Assembly: GCA_036365515.1 (NCBI GenBank)
Contig: CM070875.1
Location: forward strand, 96,510,128 to 96,574,127
Length of the DNA stretch: 64,000 nucleotides
From: Torymus aiolomorphi
Lineage: Eukaryota > Arthropoda > Insecta > Hymenoptera > Torymidae
Direction of reading: 5' to 3'
Part shown: piece after piece, positions 26,445 to 42,832 of the stretch
Numbering within the stretch: position 1 is the first letter of the stretch
Layout: every line of letters begins with the position of its first letter
Made by a program: the position numbers and the translations under genes
Notes under the pieces: generated by a model
Database searches by the model: none
The model's input: the letters and a program-made list of their open reading frames with translations, nothing else
What the model was told of the DNA's origin: nothing

Positions 26445-26940
26445 TGAAAAAATCCTGCAGAACTCTCTGCAGAATTTCTGCAGGACTTTCTGCATGAATT
26501 CTGCATAGCTTCTGCATAATTTCTGAGTAACATCTGCAGAGTTCCTGCATAATTTCTGCTGAAACTTCTGTAGAAATTATGCAGAAAGTATTTAGTAAAT
26601 ATGCAGAAAGTCCTGCAGAAATTCTGCATGAATTTCCTCATTTTCTGCAGGTCATTTCTACAGAATTTGTGCAGAGCATTTCTATAAAAAATTTGTAAAA
26701 ATTATGCAGGAAAATTTTCGATAAGATATACATATTATGCAGAATTTCTGGGCTAACATTTCTGCAGAACTTATGCAGAAATTCTCCATAATTTATGCAG
26801 AGCTCTCCACAGTTTCTGCAAAAGCTCTCTACAATTTCTGTAGGATTTTTCCACAATTTCTGCAGAATCCACACACTATTCCTGTAGAATCTTATGAATT
26901 TATGCAGAAACTCCTTACAACTTCTTCAAAATCACTTTAA
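26445..26940. repeat. Left subterminal TTCTGCAGAA array
   Basis: Nearly 500 bp dense with variants of the palindrome TTCTGCAGAA, spaced about 10-30 bp on both strands, beginning 10 bp from the element end. The mirror copy is 42335-42832. Dense subterminal words like this often bind a transposase. Open frames here (for example 26432-26641) are low-complexity readings of the array. Confidence 0.85.
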
Positions 26941-27179
26941 CAGGGAAAAATTCGTCTTATGGGATTTTCAATGTTTCATTACAAAGATTTTTGGCCATCG
27001 GCCGCCAAGGAATTAACTTCTAAAAAAGCTCTCCATAGTTACTACAGAAACTACATAAGTTTAGCGGGGACATTTTAGGGAGAATGTGTAAGCGCTGCGC
27101 TACCCAGTCGATTGATTACTTGTAGACCGCAAAGCTAATTGGTTCATCTTTAATATTAAGCAGAGACGAGGTCTACAAG

Positions 27180-27470
27180 TAATTAATATGACAGCGTATA
27201 TCCCTTACGAAAAAAAGCTGTAGGAATTCCTATAGAGATTCAATAGGATTTCCTATAAGTTTGCATAGAACGCCTATAGGATTTTCAAAGGATTCCTATG
27301 AGAAAATCTATACGAAACAATGCATGATTTTTTCTGTAAAATACTGTAGGAATTCGTATAGGATATGTTATAGAAAATCCTATACAGAGATTACAGAAAC
27401 CGCATTCCGAACTGCGGGAATTCCTATAGCAAAATCTATAGGAAAAAATGCCTGATTTTTATTACCAAAG
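27180..27470. repeat. Left inner array of CCTATAGGAATTCC words
   Basis: A second array about 240 bp further in, built from CCTATAG/GGAATTCC variants, mirrored at 41835-42075. Different word, same design as the outer array. Confidence 0.8.
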
Positions 27471-27592
27471 GTAACAACGGCCTAATAAATTAATCGGACC
27501 TCTAAATCTTACCTGGAGAACAGAGACAAAGAAGAAGAACATCGTAATTTTTGATAACTTGCAACCTGAAAAACAAATAGACCGCATCAGCT

Positions 27593-40054: not shown

Positions 40055-40106
40055 ACACACACATATATATATATATATATATATATATATATATATATAT
40101 ATATAT
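40055..40106. repeat. (AC)n(AT)n microsatellite
   Basis: Short AC run then about 22 AT units in the right arm; not present in the matching part of the left arm (near 30910), so it grew after duplication of the arms. Confidence 0.95.
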
Positions 40107-40190
40107 TACATTAGTTATGTGTTTTTTCGAAAGAATTTATTTAGAAAGATAATGTTACGACAGCTGACATTATTTATAGCAACTGAATTT

Positions 40191-40470
40191 ATCATTAAAA
40201 ATATTACCTATGTCGAATGCAACTTACTATCAACTGATGAGAATTTTTCCATCGGTCTTACAGTCTTATAAACTAAATTAAAATAGTTAATATTAATGGT
40301 AGTCAGATTGCCCTTGTTTATAATCACCCCCGCAGGATCTGAAATAAAATCTTAATTAAAACCTGGAGAAAAAACTTTATTAGCAAAGGACTATCTGACT
40401 GCCCACTACCACCAAATTGCCCAATTGACCAACGTTTCGAGCCTGCTCCGGCTCCTCCTCAGGGACCCTT
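40191..40470 (-). mobile_element. 280-bp insert with a Penelope-like end (AACTGAATTT duplication)
   Basis: AACTGAATTT stands on both sides (40181-40190; 40471-40480), and the left arm has a single copy (ctaaattcagttg near 30830). On the minus strand the insert opens CCTGAGGAGGAGCCGGAGCA then GGCTCGAAACG, a hairpin between CTGANGA and GAAA as in the hammerhead-ribozyme ends of Penelope-like elements. No coding sequence remains. Confidence 0.65.
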
Positions 40471-42832
40471 AACTGAATTTAGTAACAATATAATTAAGTA
40501 ACTCACTAGGAAAGTGTCAGGGATCCAGATCACGGATTCAGCTGAAACTTTGGGATAGGTTTTTTATATAGAAATATGAAGAAAGCTGCAATATTAGACC
40601 CTAACGCTCAAAAGAACTAACTTTCTGGAAATTTGTAGCCTTATTTTGAAAAAAAGTCTTGAAAAATACTTCTTCTTAAAACAGTATCTATTTAACATTA
40701 GAAAGTTTTGAATATCATTTCAAAAATAGAAAATAAAAGTAGAGAAAATGGGCTTTCATTTGCTTTCTTAAGAAGTAAAAAATGTCCATTCCTTCCAAAG
40801 TTATGAAAGTTTAAATTTGAGCATCGAAAGTGAACCAACATACGCAGGCAGTGGAACAGTGAATTTTTTGGGATCAAACAGTGCATTTTCGATACTTTAT
40901 TTTAAATTTTCATAACTTTATAAGAATTCGCCATTTTTTAATTCTTAAAAAGGTAAATAAAAGCTCGTTTCCTCTAGTTTTATTATCTATTTCTGAAATA
41001 ATATTCAAGACTTTCTAAAGATAAATAGTTGCCGTTTTAAAAAGTGGGTTTTTTCAAGACATTTTTCAAAATAAAGCTAAAAATGTCTAGAACTTTCATT
41101 TTTTTTTGTGCAGGCATATTGTAAAAGTAATTAAAATACAAAAGCAATTTTCTATCAAGAAAAAAATGTTAAAAGGATAGCTATTATGTTTTACTTACTG
41201 CTATTACTGCAATATGTTTTTACGTAACATATTGCAGCATAATGACAAAACATTTTTATTCAAGCAAGAGTCATAGCCTAGCCTGTCACCCGTATATCTG
41301 TTGTCTGCATGGTTGTAGCATGCCTACCAACGTGTAGGAAAGATACCGATATAAGAACTGTGCGTGCTCGAGTTCTGCTCCGCTCGCACTGCTGACTTTC
41401 TTCACTGTTCGACGCGCGCATACAGAATAGACGAACTCGGACGCGCACAGCTGTTCATTTGACTTTAATAACGCAGGACCTCTTTTTATGCGTGTAAAAG
41501 CAGCGGGGCGATCTACAAGCGTCAATACCGTATGGGCACCGGCGTTATACGGCAACGACCATAGGAGCGTCGGCATCCTCTCCGTCGGTGGCCTTCTTCT
41601 TTTCTATCTCCGATGATACGACGTCGCATTATCAGCCATCGAGTACATCTCAGGTAATACGCTGGCGTTCCATACCTTTATGCTGTTTAGCTGATGCGGT
41701 CTATTTGTTTCTCAAGTTGCAAGTTATCAAAAATTACCATGTTCTTCTTCCTTGTCTCTGTTCTCCAGGTAAGATTTAGAGGTCCGATTAATTTATTAGA
41801 CCGTTGTTACCTTTGGTAATAAAAATCAGGCATTTTTTCCTATAGATTTTCCTATAGGAATTTCCGCAGGTCGGAATGCGGTTTCTGTAATCCCTGTATA
41901 GGATTTTCTATAACTTATCCTATAGGAATTCCTACAGTTTTTACAGAAAAAATCATGCATTGTTTCCTATAGATTTTCTTATAGGAATCCTATGAAATTC
42001 CTATAGGAGTTCTACGCAAACTTATAAGAAATCCTATAGAATCTCTTTAGGAATTCCTACAGGTTTTTTTCGTAAGGGATATATGCTGTCACATTAATTA
42101 CTTGTAGATCTCGTCTCTGCTTAATATTAAATATGAACCAGTTAGCTTTGCGGTCTACAAGTAATCAATCGACTGGGTAGCGCAGCGCTTATACCCTAAA
42201 ATGTCCCCGCTAAACTTATGTAGTTTCTGTAGTAACTATGGAGAGCTTTTTTAGAAGTTAATTCCTTGGCGGCCGATGGCCAAAAATCTTTGTAATGAAA
42301 CATTGAAAATCCCATAAGACGAATTTTTCCATGTTAAAGTGATTTTGAAGAAGTTGTAAGGAGTTTCTGCATAAATTCATAAGATTCTACAGGAATAGTG
42401 TATGGATTCTCCAGAAATTGTGGAAAAATCCTACAGAAATTGTAGAGAGCTTTTGCAGAAACTGTGGAGAGCTTCTGCATAAATTATAGAGAATTTCCAC
42501 ATAAGTTCTGCAGAAATGTTAGCCCAGAAATTCCGCATAATATGTATATATCTTATCGAAAATTTTCCTGCATAATTTTTACAAATTTTCTATAGAAATG
42601 CTCTGCACAAATTCTGCAGAAATGACCTGCAGAAAATGAGGAAATTCATGCAGAATTTCTGTAGGACTTTCTGCATATTTACTAAAGACTTTCTGCCTAA
42701 TTTCTGCAGAAGTTTCAGCAGAAATTATGCAGGAACTCTGCAGATGTTATTCAGAAATTATGCAGAAGCTATGCAGAAATCATGCAGAAAGTCCTGCAGA
42801 AATTCTGCAGAGAGTTCTGCAGGATTTTTTCA
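40471..42832. repeat. Right arm of the giant foldback, outer part
   Basis: Mirrors 26445-30830 without the AGCT solo LTR. Contains the inner CCTATAGGAATTCC array (41835-42075) and the outer TTCTGCAGAA array (42335-42832). The frame at 42636-42890 is a reading of that array; the one at 41286-41576 is discussed under the left arm. Confidence 0.8.

Follow-up and report, generated by a model that had tools for sequence, protein, structure and literature searches.

Within the literature searched, no described system matched the element analysed here more closely than Galileo, a P superfamily transposon of Drosophila. Among its two-TIR copies with elongated arms, copy 112, the longest in D. willistoni, is described as 9021 bp long; its arms measure 4246 and 4680 bp and contain internal direct tandem repeats, and the copy has nested transposons and no transposase segment. 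The same account describes extension of the arms by tandem repeats and by recruitment of inner sequence (PMC4168063). Transposase binding sites are reported from the repeats of the long Galileo arms (PMC3688188). A second comparable system, the Foldback/Mutator element Tm1 of root-knot nematodes, possesses composite inverted repeats built from smaller repeats and includes copies without transposase, the two ends of a copy sharing 93% identity on average (PMC3169594). Among transposons with short target duplications, CMC elements are described with duplications of 2-4 bp and ISL2EU with a 2-bp duplication that is AT only (PMC4482050), and CACTA/CMC elements with subterminal repeats (PMC8978399).

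The element described here, found in Torymus aiolomorphi, shares with Galileo the long, gene-less arms with internal tandem repeats, an architecture that is already known from the published description of copy 112 (PMC4168063), so that an initial annotation which had called the element unlike any family that could be named was too strong. It also resembles Tm1 in its repeat-built inverted repeats and lack of transposase. It differs from Galileo, for which duplications of 7-8 bp are described (PMC4168063), by its 2-bp duplication, its ends, the presence of two inner-arm types in several copies each and the lack of a known transposase relative, and from Tm1, described as having 8-10 bp duplications, by its far greater length (PMC3169594). 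With a probability of roughly 0.9, we consider it to be one copy of a foldback DNA transposon that is non-autonomous and present in many copies; its palindrome is inherited as a unit, would be mobilised in trans and can be copied from arm to arm.

The window, i.e. the whole stretch of 64,000 nucleotides that was analysed, contained a single palindrome at 26439-42838, in which the inverted matches of a self-comparison ran collinearly inward from both outer ends and met near 36261. The limits of the whole foldback element (26439-42838; 16,400 bp) were set by the terminus of other copies and by the empty Copia site described below. The left arm (26439-36261, plus strand) was of the kind with a 330-bp block (kind A) and the right arm (36262-42838, minus strand) of the kind without it (kind B), as assigned by arm alignment and comparison of arm kinds; the central loop region was placed by the arm alignment at approximately 36190-36340. 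With nested pieces excluded, the arms aligned end to end with 4706 of 5027 ungapped columns equal, the 6.4% divergence comprising 185 transitions and 136 transversions. Long inverted repeats that nearly meet and are internally repetitive place the element in the foldback structural class. Without the six stretches specific to one arm, its size was about 10.2 kb.

Each terminus was accompanied by a subterminal CTGCAGAA array (terminus and array together at 26439-26875, plus strand, and 42400-42838, minus strand), with 26 matches in either array to TTCTGCAGAA at no more than 2 mismatches, compared with means of 1.0 and 0.8 and maxima of 5 and 6 in 200 first-order resamplings for each array. Further in, both arms possessed 360-bp tandem repeats, at 31139-33583 on the plus strand (interrupted at 31643-32833) and at 37428-39860 on the minus strand (interrupted at 37547-38696). 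In the left arm, a small palindrome (30193-30705, plus strand; 77% self-identity) lay close to the inner limit of the outer 2.6 kb that the copies share, and it had a counterpart in the right arm (40610-41105, minus strand; 74% self-identity); because it occurs in both arms, it should be older than the large palindrome. Stop-free stretches in the cleaned arms reached at most 103 and 105 codons, compared with means of 94 and 96 codons in 100 resamplings, and a Pfam search of the right arm in six frames (36262-42842, stops read as X) gave no match at E 0.1, a Tc1/mariner transposase included. The palindrome, its arms of about 5 kb matching around a short loop, the two arrays, the 360-bp repeats and the lack of genes had all been proposed in the initial annotation and were borne out; so was the same inverted sequence at both ends, although the true ends, 26439 and 42838, lay 6 bp further out than it had placed them.

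Four of the six longer stretches confined to one arm were in the left arm and two in the right, and five were bordered by direct repeats resembling target duplications (AGCT, ATGT, ATAT, TTAA and AACTGAATTTA). In the left arm, two nested insertions may be solo LTRs, one at 27593-29285 (TG..CA ends, 4-bp duplication AGCT) and the other at 31643-32833 (TGTAAC..GTTACA ends, 4-bp duplication ATGT, with a TC microsatellite), and a nested inverted-repeat element at 33584-35091 possessed arms of about 515 bp with 97% identity, GGGAGCGTCC ends and the duplication ATAT. In the right arm, the element at 37547-38696 had CCCTTTGAAGC ends and TTAA on its flanks, from which target we take it to be piggyBac-like, and a 280-bp piece at 40192-40471 sat between AACTGAATTTA direct repeats. 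A hammerhead-like appearance of this last piece was unsupported, as the window gave no Rfam match at gathering thresholds. The remaining stretch was the 330-bp block itself (29868-30202, plus strand), which was likewise confined to one arm in the other two copies of type I (see below) whose arms were both read at this position, and which is not a late insertion.

On either side of the palindrome lay a part of one Copia integrase, as the initial annotation had recognised. The part C-terminal to the insertion (SH3_retrovirus) was at 26164-26436 and the N-terminal part at 42841-44131, both on the minus strand, the latter with Pol_BBD and gag_pre-integrase matches at 43217-44131 and an integrase reading with an internal stop at 42841-43216. 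The initial annotation had rejoined the two in frame by removal of a TA, and this step did not hold. Joined in this way, the flanks read KLYALRNGSKV with an SH3_retrovirus score of 42.4 bits, which inserts four residues (ALRN) absent from all 17 aligned Copia relatives, whereas joining them minus one copy of AT gave the reading KYLKLYGSKVFVRV and a score of 54.2 bits. Fifty Copia relatives were found at E 1e-3 or better, the named ones including one from Trichogramma kaykai, and the 17 that were aligned all fitted the AT empty site. As fixed by these relatives, the target duplication of the window copy is 2 bp, AT, with copies at 26437-26438 and 42839-42840 (plus strand), and the predicted empty site is CTACCATATAATTT.

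At least 146 candidate ends were found in the window's own genome (1,084,570,280 bases in 21 contigs), located on five contigs and in both directions, so that the doubt raised beforehand, that no other copy with these ends might exist, was removed. Forty of them were scored, and each gave a main match of 93-100%. Two of these ends were those of the window itself, and the other 38 were all read. Many copies had in common the subterminal CTGCAGAA arrays and the terminus CCCTTATGAAAAAATCC (CCCTTATGAAAAAATCCTGCAGAACTCTCTGCAG in the comparison of ends), and the consensus of the 40 ends began with CCCTTATG. Of 41 compared ends, including an extra one found inside locus L070, 40 had at most 8 mismatches to CCCTTATGAAAAAATCCTGCAGAACTCTCTGCAG, and the first base was C in 34 of those 40. 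The end of L051 was truncated.

Ends facing each other were paired according to position and direction, which gave eleven pairs to consider, nine of them countable; L044/L024, with its right flank inside the end of another copy, and L043/L020, with one end altered, were left uncounted. Insertion duplicated 2 bp of no fixed sequence in most countable pairs (6/9: AT in the window, CA, CC, AA, AC and TA), as against 65 of 811 non-partner pairs matching at 2 bp by chance (8%; binomial tail 1.8e-5). Foldback elements characteristically move as units that duplicate their target and reach several copies, as was the case here. At 3 bp one pair of the nine matched (ATA), and none did at 4 or 5 bp. The three pairs that failed at 2 bp read GA/AA, TA/AT and AT/TA, one of them matching at 3 bp; recombination between copies may be the cause, and chimeric Galileo copies are likewise described without matching duplications (PMC3573991). 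For L067 and L064, the expected partner ends did not turn up in L078 and L079.

These duplications also bear on the enzyme. The initial annotation had favoured a Tc1/mariner-type transposase acting on a TA target, and one of the six duplications is TA, a Tc1-like frame is present in the window and a mariner occurs in L071. Against it, the other five duplications differ from TA, the window duplication is AT on the evidence of the 17 Copia relatives, and the L071 mariner is nested and bounded by its own ends, all of which makes Tc1/mariner mobilisation highly improbable. More generally, the duplications argue against assigning this element to families that duplicate TA only, TTAA, AT only, 7-8 bp or 8-10 bp. 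The target of piggyBac is TTAA, and the flanks of the ends as a rule lacked it. Only one of the six duplications was the AT that ISL2EU makes at A|AT|T, the varied sequence of these six departs from the TA of Tc1/mariner, the 3-bp TWA of PIF/Harbinger had only the one ATA as a counterpart, and the lack of any match at 4 or 5 bp departs from the 7-8 bp of Galileo and the P superfamily as well as from the 8-10 bp of the Mutator-type foldback Tm1. Two features of CMC elements (CACTA, Mirage, Chapaev) were found, namely a duplication within 2-4 bp and subterminal repeats in two directions, the direction being partly trivial in a palindromic unit. A CMC (CACTA-like) enzyme fits best by its duplication and subterminal repeats, with a mismatched terminal motif, as the 40-end consensus starts with CCCTTATG instead of CACTA; no transposase was seen in the element.

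A transposase-like gene near some of the ends offered another candidate for the mobilising enzyme. The same gene was present in L066 and L073 (97.6% identity over 3010 aligned bases), less than 10 kb from an end in 2 of the 22 loci read inward. It belonged to a different transposon of 4 kb, whose 433-bp inverted repeats, ATATGAGGCGTTTCGCC, are unlike the ends of the foldback family, and it was dropped as an autonomous partner once these repeats appeared; that it mobilises the family is very unlikely. Among the ends and loci read, no autonomous element with the family's ends was found, and four patterns from the end and arms gave no match in viral contigs. Eight matches of a 19-base end pattern in prokaryote genomes were taken as chance, as only 25-29 of 49 bases were equal over the longer stretch.

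The 22 loci were read about 10 kb inward, and all of them shared the outer 2.6 kb as far as it was reached. Beyond it, eight loci matched the inner arm of the window (type I: L060, L061, L062, L067, L068, L070, L075 and L073, the last over some 300 bp only) and eight possessed another inner arm (type II: L056 and seven loci compared with it). The sequence of L055 and L069 extended just slightly past the shared outer arm, and in L066, L072, L074 and L076 other sequence intervened before the inner arm. Both inner types were palindromic.

In each of the three type I copies whose arms were both read at the place of the 330-bp block (the window, L067 and L070, on three contigs), the block was present in one arm and absent from the other; the palindrome therefore moves as a unit. 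Among six single type I arms, four had the block and two lacked it. Between arms with and without it, the majority base differed at 58 of 4040 columns, 15 of these differences being fixed and 56 of the 58 lying at arm position 1377 or further in. Because of these differences and the one-armed block, the type I ancestor must already have had two slightly different arms, alike over the outer 1.4 kb. The idea that the arms were identical at insertion was rejected, as columns without a 70% consensus hold real differences between arm kinds. In type II the arm kinds were less clean, L055 having one of each and L056 two that were alike at the small number of informative sites. Movement as a unit, already claimed in the initial annotation, is thus supported by the two arm kinds kept in three of three type I copies together with the target duplications of the paired ends.

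With columns lacking a 70% consensus left out, the window copy had 88 changes in the left arm only, 101 in the right arm only, 7 shared and 1 unlike in both (4084 clear-consensus columns), and one-arm changes exceeded shared ones in nine of ten copies, three of which were pairs failing the duplication test; the exception was L071. These counts indicate that each copy gains its own changes after insertion. The tree of the ends was star-like and contained a clade (support 0.96) made up of the 17 type II ends. Paired ends were sisters in one pair of eight, that of the window, and in only one of eight pairs were the two ends each other's nearest neighbours over the outer 660 bp. The outlying branches (L028, L039, L046, L049 and L052) reflected, at least partly, truncation, insertion or deletion within the compared 660 bp. 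If the palindrome were instead remade at each transposition from one arm, with a half-element hairpin as the mobile intermediate, copies such as L071, in which one arm was overwritten by the other, and perhaps L056 with its similar arms would be accounted for; the two arm kinds kept by the three type I copies and the scarcity of paired ends that are nearest neighbours or sisters make such remaking unlikely.

The exceptional copy, L071+L077 (C2:207532979-207543155; 10,177 bp), had unlike flanks and a TA/TA duplication. Its arms showed 1 mismatch in 3.5 kb, compared with 18 in the outer 750, where a further 34 columns were gapped. Changes shared between the arms numbered 35, and those confined to one arm or the other 12 and 5. 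The matched tract ran 137 bp into the mariner nested in the centre, which possesses its own ends, and stopped at a short shared word. The simplest reading is that a break was repaired by copying the other arm, the copying being terminated by microhomology joining. At arm positions 1662, 1665 and 1731 of the window copy, the right arm had bases of the left kind, a smaller copied tract of the same sort. These tracts show that the arms can overwrite each other.

The near-identity of the L071 arms (99.8% over 3.8 kb) is also what a local inverted duplication or an assembly artefact, instead of a mobile unit, might produce. That copy has unlike flanks and a target duplication, however, and the family has ends on five contigs and two arm kinds common to three copies on three contigs. 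An assembly artefact would be unlikely for the window itself because its arms are 6.4% divergent and carry different insertions. Taken together, either origin is extremely improbable.

For a foldback transposon inherited as a unit, the following course of events may be proposed. A transposase supplied in trans would bind the subterminal arrays and bring two like ends together, and the palindrome would then move by cut and paste. A break in one arm would be repaired by copying the opposite arm, which would keep the palindrome long and may draw in adjacent sequence. More tentatively, and whatever the class of transposase, such repair might enlarge the palindrome when one end captures neighbouring DNA, the other is rebuilt in inverted orientation and the enlarged form spreads. 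This capture and rebuilding is rather doubtful; if true, it would account for the combination of a common outer arm with two dissimilar inner arms.

As far as the literature was searched, the family with its ends and target duplication is new, as are the two inner arms that go with a single outer arm and the copying between arms caught through a junction in a nested mariner. Many palindromes are described as fragile sites (PMC7999016), and the family has spread palindromes of about 10 kb across a 1-Gb genome despite this fragility; the inheritance and repair of such palindromes could be measured by means of the two kinds of arm and the junction in L071. Galileo is reported at inversion sites (PMC2775673), and the present copies, which lie on five contigs and in both directions, may likewise be inversion sites. 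Outside the palindrome, the window also encodes a transposase at 20912-21982, for which the best named relative was from Phymastichus coffea (68%), with other relatives reaching up to 82%.

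On one contig (C2) of the Torymus aiolomorphi assembly, two ends of the foldback family, at 5772689 and 5778306, face each other with 5.6 kb between them, and their flanks are nearly identical in inverted orientation, as if the pair had been inserted into, or duplicated together with, a larger palindrome. The outer flanks of two family copies (loci L047 and L052) are nearly identical and consist of units that resemble arm positions 889-1061 at about 75%; this resemblance suggests that part of the foldback arm has a related satellite.

Among the nested stretches in the window copy (26439-42838), each in one arm, are the following three. 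An inverted-repeat element (33584-35091) with ends GGGAGCGTCC and an ATAT duplication shows 97% likeness between its own arms; 46 bp of it also match window 7614-7659. A TTAA-flanked element (37547-38696) is mostly self-palindromic and possesses 122-bp tandem repeats. The short insert at 40192-40471 contains an apparent hammerhead core, judging by the motif, and had no match in Rfam at gathering score.

Among neighbors of family copies, a DNA polymerase B fragment (PF03175; L063:8452-9357), presumably Polinton-like, lies close to the copy in locus L063. Loci L073 (1185-5245; 4756-8816 when turned) and L066 share a transposon of 4 kb whose inverted repeats (ATATGAGGCGTTTCGCC) are 433 bp long; it encodes a transposase-like protein with no match in Pfam. 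Sequence comparison revealed a remnant on the minus strand of the window (63256-63897) that aligns with the C-terminal half of this protein at 25% identity over 230 positions (E 3e-16).

Outside the foldback element, window 17056-23229 contains inverted repeats and 38-42 bp tandem arrays, as well as a Tc1-like transposase frame of 357 codons (20912-21985), among whose named relatives ants and chalcid wasps predominate.
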